Assembly (NCBI RefSeq): GCF_039655865.1
Contig: NZ_JBBYXL010000003.1
Location: 310,001-374,000, forward strand
Origin: Prosthecobacter sp. SYSU 5D2
GTDB lineage: Bacteria; Verrucomicrobiota; Verrucomicrobiia; Verrucomicrobiales; Verrucomicrobiaceae
DNA length: 64,000 bases
Direction: 5' to 3'
A program made the translations under genes and the position numbers. Positions 7,799 to 49,432 of this stretch are shown in pieces. How positions within the stretch are numbered: the stretch's first letter is position 1; the number at the start of each line of letters is the position of its first letter. The notes beneath the pieces are model-generated. The model was not told where the DNA came from and searched no databases. It saw only the letters and a program-made list of their open reading frames with translations.

Positions 7799-7822
7799 GG
7801 AAGCAACGAAGATCCAGGGACG

Positions 7823-7868
7823 AAGTCCTGCGGGACGCAGGACTTAGCACGCGGGACGCGTGCGCTCC
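7823..7868 (-). repeat. Tandem REP-like hairpins with GGA/TCC loops
   Basis: Two perfect hairpins sit side by side. AAGTCCTGCG / CGCAGGACTT (7823-7832, 7836-7845) closes on GGA. GCACGCG / CGCGTGC (7847-7853, 7857-7863) also closes on GGA. On the minus strand the loop reads TCC, and GGAG (CTCC at 7865-7868 on +) stands at the 5' foot. The position downstream of the kinase stop would also suit a transcription-attenuating structure. A close relative of the second hairpin occurs at 41384-41405. Confidence 0.7.
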
Positions 7869-7879
7869 AGTTACATCCC

Positions 7880-13298: not shown

Positions 13299-13930
13299 TG
13301 AATATTGTCATCACCATCGACGGCCCCGCCGCCTCGGGCAAAAGCAGCGTCGCACGCATCCTCGCCCAACGTTTGGGATACATTTATGTCAATACGGGCA
13401 ACATGTACCGGGCCATGACCTGGGCCGTTTTACAGACGGACATTGACCCTAATGACATGGATGCCGTGCGAGAAACAGCAAAGAAGATTCTGATTGAATC
13501 CCCGGTCTTAGAAGGCCAGACGCAAGTATCCGTGAATGGCAAACTGCTCACAGCGGATGACCTGAATAGCGATCCCGTCAACCGGGGTGTCTCACTCGTC
13601 GCGCGGGTGCCGGAGGTCAGGTCGCGGCTGGTGGCGGATCAGCGAGCGCTGTCCAGCCTTGGCCCTCTGGTCATGGAAGGGCGGGACATCGGCAGTGTGG
13701 TGTTCCCCGAAAGCCCGCTGAAGTTTTATATTGATGCCAGCGAGGAAGTCAGGGCCGCCCGCCGTCAGGCCCAGGGCCATACGGACCAGGTGGCCGAGCG
13801 TGACCGCCTGGACTCCACCCGCAAGACCTCTCCTCTGGTCATCCCGGAGGGCGCTATCGTGATTGATAACAGCCACCTTACCCTCGAAGGTGCCGTGCAG
13901 GCCGTTCTTGACCGTCTGCCGGCAAAGTGA
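13295..13930 (+). CDS. cmk: Cytidylate kinase
   Basis: Cmk phosphorylates CMP and dCMP to the diphosphates. The P-loop GPAASGKSS lies at 10-18, and RLGYIYVNTGNMYRAM follows. VMEGRDIGSVVFP is the conserved substrate/Asp motif, and the lid region is REVRAARRQAQGH-like. The protein has 211 residues. Two ATGs are possible, 13295 (overlapping the aroA stop) and 13298. The coupled first one is used here. Confidence 0.95.
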   Translation: MMNIVITIDGPAASGKSSVARILAQRLGYIYVNTGNMYRAMTWAVLQTDIDPNDMDAVRETAKKILIESPVLEGQTQVSVNGKLLTADDLNSDPVNRGVSLVARVPEVRSRLVADQRALSSLGPLVMEGRDIGSVVFPESPLKFYIDASEEVRAARRQAQGHTDQVAERDRLDSTRKTSPLVIPEGAIVIDNSHLTLEGAVQAVLDRLPAK

Positions 13931-13933
13931 AGC

Positions 13934-14066
13934 GGGCACTCCTGCCTGCTTGCTAGAAAACCTCGCTGATTGATCTCCATGATGTCCATCACTTCCGCCA
14001 CCTGGCATCCGGGGCCTCTGTCACCTCATCGGCCTTTCAGCCTCACTTTGGCAGGCAGGAGTGCCC
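13934..14066. repeat. Long inverted repeat of the REP-like family
   Basis: GGGCACTCCTGCCTGC (13934-13949) and its exact reverse complement (14051-14066) flank 101 bases between cmk and plsC. Each arm can also fold on itself around a CTCC loop. The arms match the hairpins at 24430-24447 and 41358-41375. The interior shows no reading frame of note. The copy lies between two co-directional genes and may form a large stem-loop in the transcript. Confidence 0.7.
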
Positions 14067-14091
14067 ACCTCACTTCCCACCCTGAGTTCGC

Positions 14092-24420: not shown

Positions 24421-24512
24421 GAGAGGAGCGTGGGCACTCCTGCCCGCACCTTTCATAGTCGCGGCTTCGCCGCCAATTTAATTCAGCGGACAAGAGTGTC
24501 CGCGCTCCTCTC
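24421..24512. repeat. REP/BIME-like palindromic element (three hairpins)
   Basis: A 92-base element is bounded by GAGAGGAGCG (24421-24430) and its reverse complement (24503-24512). Inside are three hairpins: GTGGGCA-CTCC-TGCCCGC (24430-24447), GCGGC-TTC-GCCGC (24461-24473) and GCGGACA-AGAG-TGTCCGC (24486-24503). The two outer hairpins face each other, each with GGAG at its outer foot, which is the classic BIME arrangement. It lies between convergent genes. Confidence 0.75.
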
Positions 24513-29435: not shown

Positions 29436-32400
29436 ATGCTCCGCCACGTCCTTCTTTCCCTCCTGCTGCCCTTGTCTCTCGTCGCCCAGGCAGCGGAAAT
29501 CCGCCCGCTAAAGGCGCTTCTCGTCGCTGGTGGTTGCTGCCATGATTACGCCCAACAGCACGTTATCCTCAGCCAGGGCATCCAGTCCCGGGCCAATGTG
29601 CAGGTGGATGTCGTCTGGACCGATGACAAATCCACCAACCCTCCCCTGTCCCTATATAACAACCCGGACTGGGCCAAAGGCTACGACATCGTCATTCACG
29701 ACGAATGCGCCGCCGGAATGAAGGACTTCGGCGCCATCAAGCGCATCCTGGACGTCCACAAGACCGTCCCCGCCGTGCATCTGCACTGCGCCATGCACAG
29801 CTTTCGGCCCGGTAACGACTCCTGGTACAAGCACCTCGGACTCCAGTCCAATTCCCACGGCCCGCAGCTCCCCATCGCCATCACCTTTGTGGACCGGGAC
29901 CACCCCATCACCCAGCCCCTCGCCGACTGGACAACCATCAAAGAGGAGCTGTATAACAATGTGAACCTCTTCGATGCCCACCCCCTGGCCATGGGCAAAC
30001 AGACGGTGAAACAAAAGGACGGGACGATGCAGGACGTGGAATACATCGTCGCCTGGACGAACGAGAAGCAGGGCGCGCGCAGCTTTAGCACCACCCTCGG
30101 TCACAACAGCGAAACCGTCGCCGATGCCCGCTACCTGGACCTCATCACCCGTGGCCTCCTTTGGGCCTGTGACAAACTCACGCCAGAATACCAAACTGCC
30201 TTCAAGGGCCAAAACAAAATCACCTTTGTCAAAGGCGATCCCTCCCCACCCAAGCCCCAGCCAAAACCCGCCACAGCAGCAGCCACCCCACCCCCCGCCG
30301 CCAAAGACGCCACCCTAGTCACAGTCACCGCCAGCAGCGAGGAAAGCGGCAAAAACAACTTCGCCTGGCGCGCCGTGGATGGCGACGAATCCACCCGCTG
30401 GTGCGCCAGCAATGCCACCTACCCGCAGTGGCTCCAGCTTGAATTTGAAAAACCCCAGTCCCTCACCGGCATCACCACCACTTGGGAAAACACAGGTGTC
30501 TATCGCTACAAGATCGAAGCCTCCCCAGATGGCCAGGCCTGGACCACCCTTGTAGATGCCTCCGCCAACACCCAAGGCGCACCTTACAATAACGACTTCA
30601 CCAAAACGGATAACATCAAGTTCCTCAAAATTCATGCTCTCAGCAAAAACAGCGGCGGCTGGGCCAGCATCCGCGAAGTGAAGCTGAAAGGCGCAGGCAT
30701 CAAATCCCTCGCCCCCAAAATGAGCGCCCAGCAGCAGGTCACTGCGGCAAAGGTCGTGAAGGAAGAATCCGACCCCTATAAAAACGCAGGCAACACCCCG
30801 CCCAAGATCGTCAAGCTCACCGCCGAAGAAGAAGCCGCCATTCTCAAGGACGTCAAAGTGCCCGAAGGTTTCGAAGCCACTCTCTTCGCCAATTCCGCCG
30901 CCGCCAACTACCCCGTCTTCGTCGCCGCTGCACCCGATGGCACCCTTTATGTCAGCAGCGATGGCAACGGCTCCCTCGGCCGCAATCCCAAGCGCGGCCG
31001 CATCATCCGCCTGCGCGATCTGGATGGCGATGGCCGGGCCGATGAAGCCAAGGTCTTCTGCGAGGTGGACAGCCCGCGCGGACTCGTCTGGGATCACGAC
31101 CGCCTCTATCTCGTCCACCCGCCGCACCTCAGCGAGTTCATTGATGCCGATGGCGACGGCGTCGCTGAGAAGCAAAACATCCTCGTCAAGGACATTGCCT
31201 TCGGATTCAAAGACCGGCCCGCCGACCACACCACCAACGGCCTCAGCCTCGGCATAGACGGCTGGCTCTACATCGCCGGCGGTGACTTCGGTTTCATGAA
31301 GGCCATCGGCACCGATGGCCGCACGCTTCAGCATCGCGGCGGCGGCGTCATCCGCGTCCGCCCTGACGGCACCGGATTGGAAATTTATTCCACCGGCACC
31401 CGCAACATCCTGGAGGTCGCCATCAGCCCCCTCATGGACATCTTCGCACGCGACAACACCAACGACGGCGGCGGCTGGAACGTCCGCTTCCATCACTTCA
31501 CCGGCCTGGACGACCACGGCTACCCGCGCCTTTACAAGAACTTCAATGACGAGTGCATCCAGCCCCTGGCCGACTACGGCGGCGGCTCCGGTTGCGGAGC
31601 CGTTTACATTGACGAGCCCGGCTTCGGCGAAGCCTGGAACAACGCCCCCTTCACCGCCGACTGGGGCACCGGAGCCATTTACAAACATTCTGTTAGGCCC
31701 AAAGGCGCCACCTTTGAAGAGGTCAAAGCCCCCGAGCCCTTCCTCAAAATGACCCGCCCCACCGATGCCGACGTGGACGCCATGAGCCGCGTCTATGCCG
31801 CCAGCTGGAAAGGCGCCACCTTCAATTGGGCCGGGCCTGATGTGGGTTTCATCGTTCAGGTGAAACCCAAAGGCTTTAAACCCGAGCCGCTCCTGGATTT
31901 CGCTAAGGCGGCTGATGCCGAACTGGTGAAGGAACTTGAATCTCCGAGCAACCGCCGGAGGATGGAAGCGCAGCGGACGATCATAAATAGGCAAAGCTAT
32001 TTTGGTGGCATTGAAAGCCTAGCTAGTCTTGCAAAAGACAACTCGAACAACTGGTGTACAAGGATTGCGGCGCTTGATATCATCGCCCGTCTAGACCTGT
32101 CAATTGCCGGCTCGCTCGCGCAGGATCTATATATTGAGTCTTTTGATGGTGCCAGACACACTCTTTGGCTTCTAACCGAACACCCAGCAATCATTCCCGA
32201 AGGTTTAGAAACCATTGATATTCCCGAAACTGTTGGCGCTCCTGGACCTGCTTTAGCACTGGCCAAGTTTGCGAATAAACACCCCAAGCTAAATCGACAA
32301 ATCTTGTCTTCTGTCGCACGCATCTCAATACTTTTTGGAGATTCCGTTGCACAACATGCAGCGGCTCAAGCAATTGGGCGATCCAACAATTTTGCCACGG

Positions 32401-33959
32401 TGTTCGATATGCTAGATAAGGACAAAACGAAGGAGTCATTAGATGTGATCGCGCTCCGCGCCCTCGCCATGATGCACCAACCCAAGGTCGTCACCGGCCT
32501 CATCGAGCGCCTCACCAAAGCCACCGATCCCGCCCTCCGCCAAGGCATCCTCGCCGCCCTCTGCCGCCTGCACTTCACCGAAGGCGAATGGAAAGGCGAT
32601 TCCTGGGGCACGCGACCCGACACACGCGGCCCGTATTACCAGCCCGAACCCTGGAGCGAAACCCCCAAGATCGCCGCCGCCCTCAAAGAAGCCCTGGCCA
32701 AAGCTGGTCCCGAAGAAGCCGCCTTCCTCGTGAAGGAGATGAACCGCAACCGCATCCAGTCGGATGACGCACTCCAGCGCATCCTCACCCTCGCCAAGCA
32801 GGACCCCAAAGTCATCCCCGATGCCGTCTCCCAGCTCGCCGCCGCCGAGACCATCCCCTCCGAAGCCATCCCCATGCTGGTGCAGGTCGTCAGTACTGCG
32901 GGCACTCCAGCCCGCAAAGCCGAGGGGAGCGCGGACACTCCTGTCCGCCCGAAAAACAATGGCGGCGAAGCCGCGAAGCCAGACGATGCGGGCAAGAGTG
33001 CCCACAGTACGACCCTCTCCCAAGCCATCATCGCCCTCACCAAAACCGACAGCGCCGAAGGAGCCGCCGCCACCCTCGCCGCCCTTGGCCCTCTCAAGAA
33101 AATGGAAGGCGCTTTCAAAGACTACGAAGCCGCCTCCACCGCCTTCTTCACTTCCCCCAAGCTCGAAAACCATCACCAGCTCATCGAAGACATCGCTGGG
33201 AAACTGGATGGACAAACTTCCGGTTATGCCGATGCCGCCCTCCTCCACCTTGCCGCCCGCACCACCGGCAGTCCGGAATCCCGCGAGCTCTCCCAAAAGG
33301 CCCTCGACCGCGGCTGGCAGGAACCCAAACGCCGCATCCAGATCATTGACGCCATCGCCTCCCTCAAGCACCAGGCCTCCGCTCCCAAAATCCTCTCCGC
33401 CTTGGACGACCCCGATTCCAAAGTCAAAGCCGCCGCCGAACGCGCCGCCAAGACCATGAAGCTGACCCGCGTCGTGGACACCACTCCCAAGCTGGCCACC
33501 TTGACCCCGGAGGCCGCCATCGCTGCCGTTCTCAAAACCAAGGGCGACATCTCCCTCGGCGAGCAGGTCTTCACCCGCGCCACCTGCATGGCCTGCCACA
33601 CCGTCAAAGAATCCGAAGCCCAAAAAGGCCCTTACCTCGGCAACATCGCCCAGACCTACAAACGCGCTGAGCTGGCCCAAAATATCCTCGATCCCAACAA
33701 GACCATCGCCCAGGGCTTCGCCAGCGAGATGATCACGCTGAAGGACGGCACCCAGCAGATGGGTTTCATCACCCTGGAAGGCTCCGCCGAAGTGAAGCTG
33801 CGCAACATCGCCGCCCAGGAGTTCACCTTCAAAACCGCCGATATCAAAGAGCGCCAGAAGCTCCCCATGTCCATGATGCCCCCCGGCCTCATGCTCAACT
33901 TCACCGTCCGCGAGTTCGCCTCCCTCCTCGATTACCTCGAAGCCCTGGCCAAGAAATAA
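29436..33959 (+). CDS. Giant exported ThuA/discoidin/PVC-dehydrogenase/HEAT/cytochrome c protein
   Basis: The 1507-residue product begins with a signal peptide (MLRHVLLSLLLPLSLVAQA). In order I see: a ThuA-like domain (about 22-265; LLVAGGCCHDYAQQ); a Pro/Ala linker; an F5/8-type discoidin domain (about 285-430; NNFAWRAVDGDESTRW); a six-bladed propeller of the PVC dehydrogenase type (about 465-830; PEGFEATLFA, LRDLDGDGRADE, IDADGDGVAEK); HEAT-like repeats (about 835-1345); and a C-terminal heme c domain with CMACH at 1384-1388. Such proteins are thought to oxidise sugars and pass electrons onward. Residues about 849-1003 lie in a low-GC block, and residues about 1153-1192 come from a REP-like insert. 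Confidence 0.88.
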   Translation: MLRHVLLSLLLPLSLVAQAAEIRPLKALLVAGGCCHDYAQQHVILSQGIQSRANVQVDVVWTDDKSTNPPLSLYNNPDWAKGYDIVIHDECAAGMKDFGAIKRILDVHKTVPAVHLHCAMHSFRPGNDSWYKHLGLQSNSHGPQLPIAITFVDRDHPITQPLADWTTIKEELYNNVNLFDAHPLAMGKQTVKQKDGTMQDVEYIVAWTNEKQGARSFSTTLGHNSETVADARYLDLITRGLLWACDKLTPEYQTAFKGQNKITFVKGDPSPPKPQPKPATAAATPPPAAKDATLVTVTASSEESGKNNFAWRAVDGDESTRWCASNATYPQWLQLEFEKPQSLTGITTTWENTGVYRYKIEASPDGQAWTTLVDASANTQGAPYNNDFTKTDNIKFLKIHALSKNSGGWASIREVKLKGAGIKSLAPKMSAQQQVTAAKVVKEESDPYKNAGNTPPKIVKLTAEEEAAILKDVKVPEGFEATLFANSAAANYPVFVAAAPDGTLYVSSDGNGSLGRNPKRGRIIRLRDLDGDGRADEAKVFCEVDSPRGLVWDHDRLYLVHPPHLSEFIDADGDGVAEKQNILVKDIAFGFKDRPADHTTNGLSLGIDGWLYIAGGDFGFMKAIGTDGRTLQHRGGGVIRVRPDGTGLEIYSTGTRNILEVAISPLMDIFARDNTNDGGGWNVRFHHFTGLDDHGYPRLYKNFNDECIQPLADYGGGSGCGAVYIDEPGFGEAWNNAPFTADWGTGAIYKHSVRPKGATFEEVKAPEPFLKMTRPTDADVDAMSRVYAASWKGATFNWAGPDVGFIVQVKPKGFKPEPLLDFAKAADAELVKELESPSNRRRMEAQRTIINRQSYFGGIESLASLAKDNSNNWCTRIAALDIIARLDLSIAGSLAQDLYIESFDGARHTLWLLTEHPAIIPEGLETIDIPETVGAPGPALALAKFANKHPKLNRQILSSVARISILFGDSVAQHAAAQAIGRSNNFATVFDMLDKDKTKESLDVIALRALAMMHQPKVVTGLIERLTKATDPALRQGILAALCRLHFTEGEWKGDSWGTRPDTRGPYYQPEPWSETPKIAAALKEALAKAGPEEAAFLVKEMNRNRIQSDDALQRILTLAKQDPKVIPDAVSQLAAAETIPSEAIPMLVQVVSTAGTPARKAEGSADTPVRPKNNGGEAAKPDDAGKSAHSTTLSQAIIALTKTDSAEGAAATLAALGPLKKMEGAFKDYEAASTAFFTSPKLENHHQLIEDIAGKLDGQTSGYADAALLHLAARTTGSPESRELSQKALDRGWQEPKRRIQIIDAIASLKHQASAPKILSALDDPDSKVKAAAERAAKTMKLTRVVDTTPKLATLTPEAAIAAVLKTKGDISLGEQVFTRATCMACHTVKESEAQKGPYLGNIAQTYKRAELAQNILDPNKTIAQGFASEMITLKDGTQQMGFITLEGSAEVKLRNIAAQEFTFKTADIKERQKLPMSMMPPGLMLNFTVREFASLLDYLEALAKK
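31980..32444 (+). other. Low-GC block inside the giant dehydrogenase gene
   Basis: Composition drops abruptly inside the reading frame. Bases 31981-32040 have 23 G/C of 60, whereas 31081-31140 in the same gene have 38 of 60. Codons rare elsewhere here (ATA, CTA, TTA, AGA) appear. GC-rich codons resume at about 32445 (ATCGCGCTCCGCGCC). The frame and helical-repeat character are kept, so it looks like an exchanged or imported segment. Confidence 0.65.
32893..33010 (+). repeat. REP-like palindromic element inserted in frame in a coding sequence
   Basis: The element is bounded by GTACTGCGGGCA (32893-32904) and TGCCCACAGTAC (32999-33010), inverted with one difference. It holds four hairpins: GCGGGC/GCCCGC (32898-32915), GCGGACA-CTCC-TGTCCGC (32931-32948, with GGAG at 32926-32929), GCGGC-GAA-GCCGC (32962-32974) and GCGGGCA-AGAG-TGCCCAC (32988-33005). 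The last three repeat the order seen at 24421-24512 in reverse. Translation stays open and gives a low-complexity Gly/Ala/Lys/Thr stretch. Confidence 0.75.
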
Positions 33960-41294: not shown

Positions 41295-41602
41295 AGGGTT
41301 GGATGATGTACAAAATGGAACGTTTCCCTCCCTCCCGCAAGATGCGCTGAAAGTACGGTGGGCACTCCTGCCCGCCTCTTCCTGGAGCGCGCGCGTCCCG
41401 CGTGCCGTTTTCCGCGCCTCGCGGGAAACCGTTCCATGATCTGCTTCTTTGCTCCAAGCAAGCCCCTAGAACACCTTCATTCCACCGCATCCCTCAAAAC
41501 TGCCCCTCATACCCCCAGTTCGCCAGCCTGTACCGATTTCCTCCCGGATAAATCCCTCCCCCGTTCCTTGACCTGCCATCCCCTCCCCGCTATCACCTTC
41601 CC
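41295..41602. other. 308-base intergenic region with REP-like hairpins
   Basis: This gap lies between divergent uvrC (-) and the SMP-30 gene (+), so it must include both promoters. The only clear content is the repeat at 41353-41429. No small gene or further structure was seen in 41430-41602. Confidence 0.4.
41353..41429. repeat. REP-like element with three hairpins
   Basis: GTAC (41353-41356) precedes GTGGGCA-CTCC-TGCCCGC (41358-41375). GGAG (41384-41387) precedes GCGCGCG-TCC-CGCGTGC (41389-41405). A third stem, GTTTTCCGCG (41407-41416) with CGCGGGAAAC (41420-41429), has one mismatch. The first hairpin matches the element at 24421, and the second matches the one at 7847-7863. Confidence 0.7.
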
Positions 41603-46500: not shown

Positions 46501-49432
46501 CGAATGGTCCGGGTCCACCGGCACCGCTTTCAATCCTGATGGCGCGGGCGTCCTCGATACAGGGGACCGCTTCACCATTCTCGAAGTTTTGGGAGCCAGC
46601 GGCAGCATCGTCAACTCCGCTACCCTCCTGACTCCTGACTGGACGCTGGACACCACCACCGACCCCGCCAAGGCGGATCTGGTTTACAGCGGTGCCAGCC
46701 TGGACAGCCTGCCCGTCCATGCCATCCTCAGTGCAGAGTCCGCAGGTGTCCCGGTTGTCATCGAACGCAACACAGACCTCGTGGTCGCGCCTGTCGCCGG
46801 CAGCTCTGCCGCCCAGCTCACCATTGAGGACGATGTCACGCTGAATATCACTGACGGCACTTTGGACGGCACCGGCCCCCATCTCATCATCGGCAGCAGT
46901 TCAGCGACTGCACTGGCCACCCAGAATGGCGGCCAGGTGAATGGGGATGGCAACCTGATCTTTGGCGTCGGAGGCTCCAGCAAAGGCGGGCAGTATGATC
47001 TTTTCGGCGGCACTTTGCATGTCCATGGGGACGTGGTGGAAGGCGGTACCGGAGGCGTGGATTCCAGTGTGGACACGGCCCAGCTCTATGTGGACGGCGG
47101 CACCTTGATCGTGGAGGGCGACATCACCGTACAGTCCTTCCGGGTGGGCAATCTTGCGGGCAAGACCGGAAGCTACACCCAGAATAATGTGAACCAGACC
47201 CTGACCAATACCGGCACCTTTTACATCGCCGAATCAGGCACCGGCACTTATGCCCTGCAAAACGGATTCATGGTTCTGACCACCACTGAAGTGGCCAACA
47301 GCACAGGCAGCACCGGCACCTGGAACATCCAGGGCGGCAAGGTTTCCGCCGGCACCACTAACATCGGCCGCAATGGCACCGGCCTGGTGGAGATCACCGG
47401 TGTGGCCGCAGGTGAAGTGCATACCTTTGGCGCCGTCAACATCGGCCTCAGCAACAGTGACACCTCTGTTGGCCACATGGTCATTGATATGCCCAATGCG
47501 GAAGATGCCGTGAACACCGCACGCATCATCGTCGGCAATGGCGGCAAAGGCAGCCTGGAACTCATCTCCGGCACCCTGAATTCCGGCAACGGCATCTACC
47601 TGGCCAATGATGCAAACTCCAATGCCTCCAATGGCCGCATCTCCACCTTCATCATTGGTGACGGCCTGTCAGAACCGGTCCTGAACATCAGCGGTGCCAA
47701 CCTGGAAACCGCCGTCAGCGGAACCGGTGTCATCACCATGAACAGCGGCACTTACAACCAGCTCACCAACAATCTGATCATCGGCCAGGGGGTGGGATCG
47801 GATGCCACCTTCAACATGAACGGCGGCGAGGTCAATATCCTCAGCCTCCTCCGCATCTCCAACAACGGCAAGGGCCTGCTTAATTTTACCGGCGGCATCA
47901 TGAACGTAACCGGTCTCATTGACATCGGAAACACGGCCAACACGGATGCCGACGGCCGCATCCAGATGAGTGGCGGTGTACTGAATGCCAACAATGGACT
48001 GACCATCGCCACCCAGGCTGGCACATTGGGCTCCGTCAGCCTCAGCGGCGGACAGCTCATTGTCACCGGCACCACCATCGTCGGCAGCAGCGGCGAAGGC
48101 AGCCTGACTATCACCGGCGTGGCTGAGGGGCAGCAACATCAGTTTGGCATCATCAACATCGGCGCGTCTAACAATGACAGCTCCAGCGGGACCGTGCTTA
48201 TTGACATGGCCGACCCCACCGACGCGATCACCATTGCAGGTGCCCTAAATATTGGCAATTCAGGCAAGGCTTCATTCACGTTCATAGAAGGCACGATCAA
48301 TGCCACCACCGGGTTCACCAATGCGGCGAATGTGAATTCAAATGAGGCCAATGGCCGCACGGCCATTGTCATTATCGGAGACGGAACCAGCACCCCCACT
48401 CTGAATATCAGCGGCGATAATTTTGAAGCGGCGGACAATGGCACCGGCATCGTGACCATGAACAGCGGCACGCTGAACCAGACGAACAACAATCTCATCA
48501 TCGGCCAGACCAGCACTTCCGACGGCACCTTTAATCTCAATGGTGGCACCCTGAATATCACCAACATGGTGCGCGTGGGCAACTCCGCCGGAGGCACCGG
48601 CACCTTCAATGTGGCAGGTGGCGACGTCTTTGCCAGCACTCTGGACTTCGGTGCCAACAACGGCACCGGCAGCTTCCACACCTACCACCAGACCGGCGGC
48701 AATGTGGAGGTGTCCAGCTTCCTCATTGCACGCGGGACACATTCCACCACCATCACTGCAGGCAGCCTCTCGACGGGCAGCATGGATCTGCACGCCTTTC
48801 CCAGCGATCCCGGAGCCACCCTTGAGTTTCTGGGGGGTGACATAGGGATTACCAACAACCTGAACTTCCGCACAGGCCGCACCGTGCTGACTGTTGGCGG
48901 CACGGCGGACCTCAGCATCGGAGGCAACCTCCTGCTGAATGCAGGTGGAACCACGGCAGAGCCCAGCAAGTTCATTGTCTCAGGACAGGAAGCCTCCATC
49001 ACCGTGACAGGAAACCTGGTCATGACCGGAACCGATGAACGCTATCTGTCCTTCATCCCAGACGCAGCCTCACCTACCCTGGTCAGTGCCCTTGAGGTCA
49101 GCGGTGACGTGACCGCCGCAGGCACCCTGGAACTGCTCGACTGGGGCACCCTGCTCAGCTCCTCCTCAACCTACGGCACCATCACCCTCATCAACAACCT
49201 GGGCAGCAACCCCGTGAACGGCACCTTTTACCAGACCAGCGGCACCTTATGGAATGAAGGCGACTTCTGGCATCATGTGTACGCCGATAATTCTTCCTGG
49301 CAGCTCAGCTACCAAGGCGGCGACGGCAACGACATCACCCTCACCGCCGTCATCGTGCCCGAGCCCTCCAGGCTGCTGCTCCTTGTCCTCGCCGTCATAA
49401 TGATGGGCAATCGTCGTCGCAGGCTCGGGTGA
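43574..49432 (+). CDS. Giant PEP-CTERM surface protein with autotransporter-like beta repeats (1952 aa)
   Basis: The protein starts with a basic N-terminus and hydrophobic signal (LPILFSSLLSIYLLLPHGSCA). The body is made of Gly/Asn/Thr-rich repeats such as LNISGANLET, TMNSGTYNQ, LIIGQGVGS and FNMNGGEVNI, the beta-helix 'autotransporter-associated strand' pattern. The C-terminus is VPEPSRLLLLVLAVIMM followed by GNRRRRL: a VPEP motif, hydrophobic helix and basic tail that mark proteins for exosortase sorting. It should be exported, trimmed and attached to or released with surface polysaccharide. No exosortase gene lies in the window. Two internal segments are recent duplications (see findings). 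Confidence 0.9.
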   Translation: MTNHSNTCAHRLRFSAHLPILFSSLLSIYLLLPHGSCALEINLTATGDWLNTANWSSGTLPGTADRANVINGHTATLSGDGGTINALRIGFGSNGTLIIDGSGGGALTINDSNGNGADTLIATAGTTGLLQIINGGTLASNNAGADGEIIIGQGTGSSGTLLLDEGSITAARGFYLGEGSQDATGEATIGDGIGTGDAILNTSGGNLEVGSAGSGKLTVNADALININSNNIVIAQSLGSSGEMILNGGTVTLNATGDINMNSGDSIFTMNGGSINARAVNMTNHEQASAVLNLNGGMLTTSQDITEGPGTTSINYNGSQLIIEGGDISTRSLHVGTAQALTSSLVMNLTSAASAQGDVQTQTFTVAAGMTLGSAGVDTTVNINNGFLDVRAGIRDGGSVTALNVGTAGTAGQLIIQGISPAVSVSSQLDSFSLGANGTLTARPNAYGINAIQTAAANLTGGTFVLDVTAFGAATSLPAYESVWIGGDGEWGASLTTWDAGQPEGYTLTANTQMTVVSSATPITGVVTLSTPGWTLVDNGSSTGTVIISNDASLSAGPVRAVLAGSDGTVAQIVRNTDLIISNSVNSGFIGSASAAHLEILGSAGLTVNADVYVGGASQGTVDQSGNMTVNGNLYFGQNPAGGDQGGTWNLYNGVTLTVTGDLLERAVSTSNAQLYIRGGTLDVAGDITVQRLDLGALSGQNSVLDIKEGQTVTSTGTTQIGAASPGIVNVTHETSVLQAANLTLGAGNANGSSLNVSAGLAGTFSGNLVVGSNGGGQNRPNLIISGTGTVHVSNSGDINTVSGNADLVINAAILSTISLSQQGSLSIARDFLLHNNTTANHRAQVIMADEASLSINRDLNYRDGTSQVLVRGGSLSVGRDLLLDSPAAAGSSLRIEGALGSLSITRHFTHAAGNLLSFAPLGGGLSTIQLTGASSIATLAGDIEVDIASFTDAATALATTSIWNTGSGTWTGSDAEWSGSTGTAFNPDGAGVLDTGDRFTILEVLGASGSIVNSATLLTPDWTLDTTTDPAKADLVYSGASLDSLPVHAILSAESAGVPVVIERNTDLVVAPVAGSSAAQLTIEDDVTLNITDGTLDGTGPHLIIGSSSATALATQNGGQVNGDGNLIFGVGGSSKGGQYDLFGGTLHVHGDVVEGGTGGVDSSVDTAQLYVDGGTLIVEGDITVQSFRVGNLAGKTGSYTQNNVNQTLTNTGTFYIAESGTGTYALQNGFMVLTTTEVANSTGSTGTWNIQGGKVSAGTTNIGRNGTGLVEITGVAAGEVHTFGAVNIGLSNSDTSVGHMVIDMPNAEDAVNTARIIVGNGGKGSLELISGTLNSGNGIYLANDANSNASNGRISTFIIGDGLSEPVLNISGANLETAVSGTGVITMNSGTYNQLTNNLIIGQGVGSDATFNMNGGEVNILSLLRISNNGKGLLNFTGGIMNVTGLIDIGNTANTDADGRIQMSGGVLNANNGLTIATQAGTLGSVSLSGGQLIVTGTTIVGSSGEGSLTITGVAEGQQHQFGIINIGASNNDSSSGTVLIDMADPTDAITIAGALNIGNSGKASFTFIEGTINATTGFTNAANVNSNEANGRTAIVIIGDGTSTPTLNISGDNFEAADNGTGIVTMNSGTLNQTNNNLIIGQTSTSDGTFNLNGGTLNITNMVRVGNSAGGTGTFNVAGGDVFASTLDFGANNGTGSFHTYHQTGGNVEVSSFLIARGTHSTTITAGSLSTGSMDLHAFPSDPGATLEFLGGDIGITNNLNFRTGRTVLTVGGTADLSIGGNLLLNAGGTTAEPSKFIVSGQEASITVTGNLVMTGTDERYLSFIPDAASPTLVSALEVSGDVTAAGTLELLDWGTLLSSSSTYGTITLINNLGSNPVNGTFYQTSGTLWNEGDFWHHVYADNSSWQLSYQGGDGNDITLTAVIVPEPSRLLLLVLAVIMMGNRRRRLG
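47386..47845 (+). repeat. Duplicated segment inside the giant PEP-CTERM gene, copy 1
   Basis: About 150 codons (EITGVAAGEVHTFGAVNIG to TFNMNGGEVNIL) are repeated in recognisable form at 48103-48558. The order of motifs ...IIVGNGGKGS, DANSNASNGR, LNISGANLE, NNLIIGQG is the same in both. Confidence 0.75.
48103..48558 (+). repeat. Duplicated segment inside the giant PEP-CTERM gene, copy 2
   Basis: This copy runs TITGVAEGQQHQFGIINIG to TFNLNGGTLNIT, about 717 bases after copy 1. It keeps the same motif order with scattered substitutions, which suggests a fairly old tandem-module duplication. Confidence 0.75.

Follow-up and report, generated by a model that had tools for sequence, protein, structure and literature searches.

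A large multidomain protein of Prosthecobacter sp. SYSU 5D2 carries, in a predicted loop between two HEAT helices, residues that are encoded by a DNA palindrome made of REP-like hairpins. We consider it highly probable that this palindrome is an in-frame REP/REPIN-like insertion into a disordered HEAT loop and that the loop is a recurrent site for different resident repeat families. The host gene spans positions 29436–33959 (+ strand) of the window, i.e. the 64,000-nucleotide stretch of DNA analyzed herein, and encodes 1507 amino acids comprising ThuA, F5/8 type C, DUF7133 (PVC-type heme-binding), HEAT, and CxxCH cytochrome c regions. The reading frame is open throughout the palindrome. The surrounding genome (5.87 Mb, 26 contigs, 99.98% complete) is that of a Prosthecobacter-like verrucomicrobium.

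The composite palindrome extends over positions 32892–33011 (+) and encodes residues S1153–T1192. Its left outer REP (32892–32915, +) consists of an AGTACT tag and the hairpin GCGGGCACTCCAGCCCGC and is read as STAGTPAR. The inner REP (32922–32948, +) combines the tag GAGGGGAGCG with the hairpin GCGGACACTCCTGTCCGC and yields the peptide EGSADTPVR, and the middle hairpin GGCGGCGAAGCCGC (32961–32974, +) encodes NGGEAA. The right outer REP (32988–33011) lies in inverted orientation (− strand), is formed by GCGGGCAAGAGTGCCCAC and AGTACG, and gives DAGKSAHST. The architecture is that of a nested composite, in which an AGTAC-tagged outer REP pair encloses a GGAGCG-tagged REP and the middle hairpin. 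The outer AGTAC-tagged arms are common to the insert and to the relative L009. Palindromicity is far above chance: compared with shuffled sequences, the fold reaches z −5.4 as DNA and −6.3 as RNA, and none of 200 shuffles equals it. The original prediction had placed the element at 32893–33010, correct within a base or two, and had called it a single complete REP-like element. That it is a palindrome of dispersed REP-like hairpins holds; the sequence is, however, that of a nested composite and not of a single intact copy of the element at 24421. Among the predicted tryptic peptides of the insert are AEGSADTPVRPK, NNGGEAAKPDDAGK, and SAHSTTLSQAIIALTK. A target-site duplication, suggested earlier as a check, is not visible at the insert edges, where the flanks CAGGTCGTC and ACCCTCTCC show no repetition. 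Target-site duplications are not expected from RAYT-type single-strand transposition; hence, their absence at these edges is neutral evidence. A plasmid search with the insert as query gave no match.

The hairpins of the insert belong to a family that is dispersed in the window and in the genome. An intergenic three-hairpin composite at 24421–24512, tagged by GAGAGGAGCG at both ends, is inverted relative to the in-gene copy. The likeness between the two, part of the original prediction, is borne out by inverted matches of 55 nt at 76% (repeat pair I2) and 27 nt at 93% (I6), by an identical order of hairpins, and by the invariant middle hairpin TCGCGGCTTCGCCGCCA. A third copy of the composite lies within another gene, L098. 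Further members of the family in the window are an inverted pair of AAAGTGA-tagged REP arms at 13924–14075 (repeat pair I10) and a single arm tagged by AAAGTACGG at 41349–41375 (+; repeat pairs D4 and D6). The arm of this family, herein type A, occurs in about 55 copies in the source genome (G000) when up to two mismatches are allowed, compared with 11 for a reversed control; with one mismatch, genomes of the genus hold 0–46 copies each, compared with 0–1 for the control. Most of 106 arms carry the nonpalindromic 5′ tag AAGTGATGC or GAGGAGCG, or near variants of these, and the tag is present alike on intergenic and intragenic copies. Many pairs form inverted doublets with a spacer, within about 100 bp. 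Tag, hairpin, and inverted doublets together are the anatomy of REPs and REPINs. The tags mostly read GTGA, GTAC, or GGAGCG and thus lack the GTAG or CGTC of the two superfamilies defined in PMC3733652; the family is REP-like and lies outside these superfamilies. Two other repeats of the window may be mentioned here. A 61-nt inverted repeat pair (74%) joins positions 7810–7870 and 41382–41442, the second copy adjoining the REP arm at 41349–41375. Long direct repeats spaced by 720 nt at 47610–48508 probably lie inside a repeat-rich protein.

Ten Y1_Tnp matches were found in the source genome. Two RAYT-like genes, L088 and L086, are flanked on both sides by inverted tagged hairpins of families other than type A. 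L088 (contig C11, about 70674–70910, +) has inverted hairpin pairs of AAGGAGTGGGACTTGCCAAGTCCC / GGCACTTGGCAAGTGCCGCTCCTT on each side and forms a RAYT-plus-REP unit of another family. Eight Y1_Tnp loci were inspected to a distance of 1.5 kb, and no AAGTGA-tagged type A arm was found there beside a RAYT.

In the protein, alignments with homologues mostly break at residues about 1153–1191, and the residues at about 1153–1192 are absent from homologues, which was a check proposed with the original prediction. Palindrome-free homologues carry a short linker instead. Since the loop is never empty, the net gain is 28–32 amino acids and not the about 39 first proposed, whereas the in-frame position within the 1507-residue open reading frame stands. 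An AlphaFold model of one protein (33 sequences; model residue 1 corresponds to protein residue 1010) assigns pLDDT values below 50 to residues 1158–1184, between confident helices at 1142–1156 and 1182–1201. The insert is thus predicted to sit in a disordered loop that connects two HEAT helices, in line with the inter-helix loop suggested at the outset. Downstream of the insert the gene stays under purifying selection, with dN/dS values of 0.14–0.23 against three close relatives, compared with 0.07–0.12 upstream of it. Persisting selection on the downstream part implies that translation would run past the insert. Taken with the absence in homologues, the disordered loop, and the dispersed family, this makes a mobile palindrome, presumably transposed and translated, the best reading of these residues as a source of protein sequence, as had been proposed. 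Further in-frame palindromes are found in relatives' copies of the host gene at residues about 160, 393, and 815. Residues about 855–1000 of the host protein are hypervariable among relatives and contain many lineage-specific segments.

Across relatives, the same HEAT loop holds at least five palindromes of different sequence. Seven types, A to G, were distinguished, and about 16 other relatives have none. Type A, the family of the source genome, occupies the loop in L009, L039, L084, L037, L054, L066, and L069, and single-arm remnants are present in L034, L036, and L045. Type B is found in L052 and L016; type C in L044 and L048, with half-eroded copies in L035 and L059; type D in L006; type E in L049 and L042; type F in L071 and L014; and type G in L062. 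For some short inserts the fold z is weak (−1.4 for F in L071, −1.8 for E in L042, and −1.8 for G), so that types E, F, and G are assigned by their visible stems, and E and F also by resident copies. The loop at 1153 is filled differently in L032, L041, L050, L055, L043, L068, and others, by a repeated GTCGGAC heptamer (peptide RQVGPVG; type H). This tandem motif is nonpalindromic, was therefore dropped from the palindrome count, and is apparently a separate type of repeat.

On a gene tree built with the insert columns excluded, the insert state changes at least 18 times, and one clade with 100% support contains similar proteins bearing E, F, and B. Such a patchy distribution of types would also arise if homologous recombination or gene-segment transfer, and not new insertions, had carried the palindromes from one species to another, and the conserved flanks of the loop would make recombination easy. 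This explanation is nevertheless doubtful. Each family must still have inserted once in the first place, and the match between the type in the loop and the recipient's own repeats is left unexplained.

This match is seen in several genomes. In the Brevifollis genome G005, type C is at the loop, and the genome contains 17 C arms and no A arms. G027 has type E at the loop, and E arms are essentially confined to G005 and G027. Type F is commonest in G011, whose loop carries F. A arms are more numerous in the five genomes whose loop carries an intact type A than in the remaining genomes, with the loop copies removed (rank test, p 0.0015). For type B, a resident family was sought in the host genome and a single copy only was found; for type D, the search returned matches at chance level. 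Given these counts, types B and D may have diverged in place.

Extended to all types, divergence in place would mean that a single ancestral loop palindrome changed through compensatory (template-switch) stem mutation and that every type descends from it. The types do resemble one another in their short AGT..ACT ends and in a layout of two hairpins, type F resembles a stem-changed A, B and D come without a resident family, and an origin of this kind is preferred for RPE-4/6/7 in the R. japonica paper (PMC3767692). As a general account it is nonetheless improbable: A, C, E, and F match multicopy families of their host genomes, palindrome-free homologues branch among the types, and closely related proteins hold different families. 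In-place mutation cannot yield a match to a genome-specific repeat, barring gene conversion with resident copies. Judged by these sequence comparisons, the agreement between insert and resident repeats supports repeated independent insertion.

The junction in the L098 gene behaves in the same manner. G000 and G018 have palindrome A there, G005 and G015 have J, G011 has K, and about 15 relatives lack any; J arms number 39 in G005, 11 in G015, and 0 in G000 and G018. L098 is a second gene with such a multifamily hotspot. Within one genome, copies of family J (pattern AACGAGTTTTCCAACTCGTT; G005 and others) differ by many paired compensatory stem changes, which indicates that the hairpin is kept and not the sequence.

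The insert is no exception among the genes of these organisms, contrary to the way it was first presented. When regions sampled from G000, G016, G018, and G019 were scanned by coding frame, 30 in-frame cases emerged, of which 26 remained after discards: 5 in G000, 16 in G016 (27 sampled regions), 4 in G018, and 1 in G019. At least 26 in-frame copies thus exist in what was sampled of the four genomes, and inserts of this kind have been described before (PMC3733652, PMC3767692). The discarded cases, L126, L127, L133, and L139, have the appearance of normal coding sequence that matches by chance. L123, a low-complexity protein without a Pfam family, was left out of the count, and L118, between FtsX and MacB domains, is a likely additional case outside the 26. 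In G000, G018, and G019, the majority of the sampled copies do not lie in frame inside a gene. Acceptor proteins include DUF7133, PSCyt2, PSD1, FG-GAP, cytochrome c, protein kinase, RecD2, and UvrA, the last with the in-frame copy in uvrA of G018 (L250).

These copies show a strong preference for one reading frame. The arm is read as AGTPAR/ADTPVR in 24 of the 26 copies and as RALLPA in the other 2; the third frame is closed by the TGA of the AAGTGA tag. Relative to two open frames, the bias has a p of about 5e-6, or 3e-5 when three shared sites are merged. Its simplest cause is selection against the hydrophobic reading. The same bias bears on a role of the hairpin at the RNA or DNA level, e.g. 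as a translational pause between helices, in mRNA stability, or as a protein-binding site on DNA, with the peptide as a by-product. The mRNA hairpin is indeed very stable, and some palindrome is retained at this place in many relatives. The bias toward a hydrophilic frame, however, points to selection on the peptide, and many close relatives have an intact gene and no loop palindrome, which makes such a role very unlikely. An assembly artifact or pseudogene can be dismissed almost entirely, as nothing specific speaks for it beyond the fact that palindromes can misassemble, while the genome is 99.98% complete, like inserts occur in independent genomes, and the reading frame is conserved 3′ of the insert.

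Repeated insertion of resident families most likely proceeds as follows. A REP/REPIN-like element would be nonautonomous, with a RAYT/Y1 transposase presumably acting on it in trans, and single-strand transposition by this enzyme would insert tagged hairpins either at random or at preferred sites. Those that land in genes would survive only if in frame, free of stops, and located in tolerant loops. Tolerance in the HEAT loop would rest on room for extra hydrophilic residues and on the frame used, which provides a Ser/Ala/Gly/Thr/Pro/Arg linker (..AGTPAR..AGKSAR..); the insert is presumably near-neutral. The loop would act as a recurrent landing or retention site, into which resident families insert independently in each species and in which they are then replaced or eroded. 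Later palindromes may enter or replace earlier ones, and the GGAGCG-tagged REP with the middle hairpin would herein have entered an older AGTAC-tagged pair. A farther-reaching version, which we regard as speculative and hardly likely as a whole, sees palindromic repeats as a running supply of exchangeable linkers, loops of large cytochrome/DUF7133 proteins as true insertion or retention hotspots with resident families replacing one another, and the element sequence as selected for a harmless hydrophilic peptide in the preferred frame.

Related systems are known. Intragenic REPs are tagged hairpin repeats, often dimers encoding 20–30 amino acids, within unbroken open reading frames; Opitutus terrae, also of the Verrucomicrobia, has the most intragenic GTAG repeats among the genomes surveyed, with uvrA among the hosts, and two Xanthomonas recB genes carry different REPs at about one site (PMC3733652). 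G018 likewise has a copy in uvrA. Unlike those REPs, tagged by GTAG or CGTC, the repeats described here bear AAGTGA, AGTAC, or GGAGCG, and the present data go beyond that survey by one loop with at least five families across a genus, by matching to resident repeats, and by a measured frame bias. REPINs are nearly all extragenic, with 14 of 1,067 most-abundant 16-mers overlapping genes in P. fluorescens SBW25 (PMC3116915). The insert shares with the REPIN/RAYT system a pair of inverted REP hairpins separated by a spacer and, in the source genome, RAYT genes with flanking REPs; it differs in the number of in-frame intragenic copies, 16 in the 27 regions sampled from G016, and in that no RAYT was found beside the type A family.

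The RPEs of Rickettsia (Ogata et al. 2000/2002, as cited in PMC10969869 and PMC3767692), the classic example, are mobile palindromes of about 100–150 bp, in frame in many proteins at solvent-exposed places, with different RPE groups in orthologous genes. Like RPEs, the palindromes described here are in frame in unrelated genes, absent in homologues, and located in a disordered part of the protein (one protein modelled). Judged by the descriptions of RPEs, they are set apart by phylum, sequence, and an architecture of tagged hairpin doublets. A study of R. japonica asked whether different RPEs at one site reflect a hotspot or divergence, a question left undecided for Rickettsia (PMC3767692). 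Unlike in Rickettsia, resident families here vary from genome to genome, and the insert can be assigned to them.

No paper describing these inserts came up in a literature search that combined Prosthecobacter with palindromic repeats. The phenomenon of intragenic REPs and RPEs is already known from Rickettsia and Opitutus; the present case is an unusually clear one, with good evidence for a hotspot. With several families distributed across related genomes, the question of hotspot versus divergence raised for RPEs becomes answerable by matching inserts to resident repeats. The frame bias can be counted and serves as a straightforward mark of selection acting on the peptide. If more genes of the genus were aligned, the share of mobile repeats in protein length variation could be gauged.
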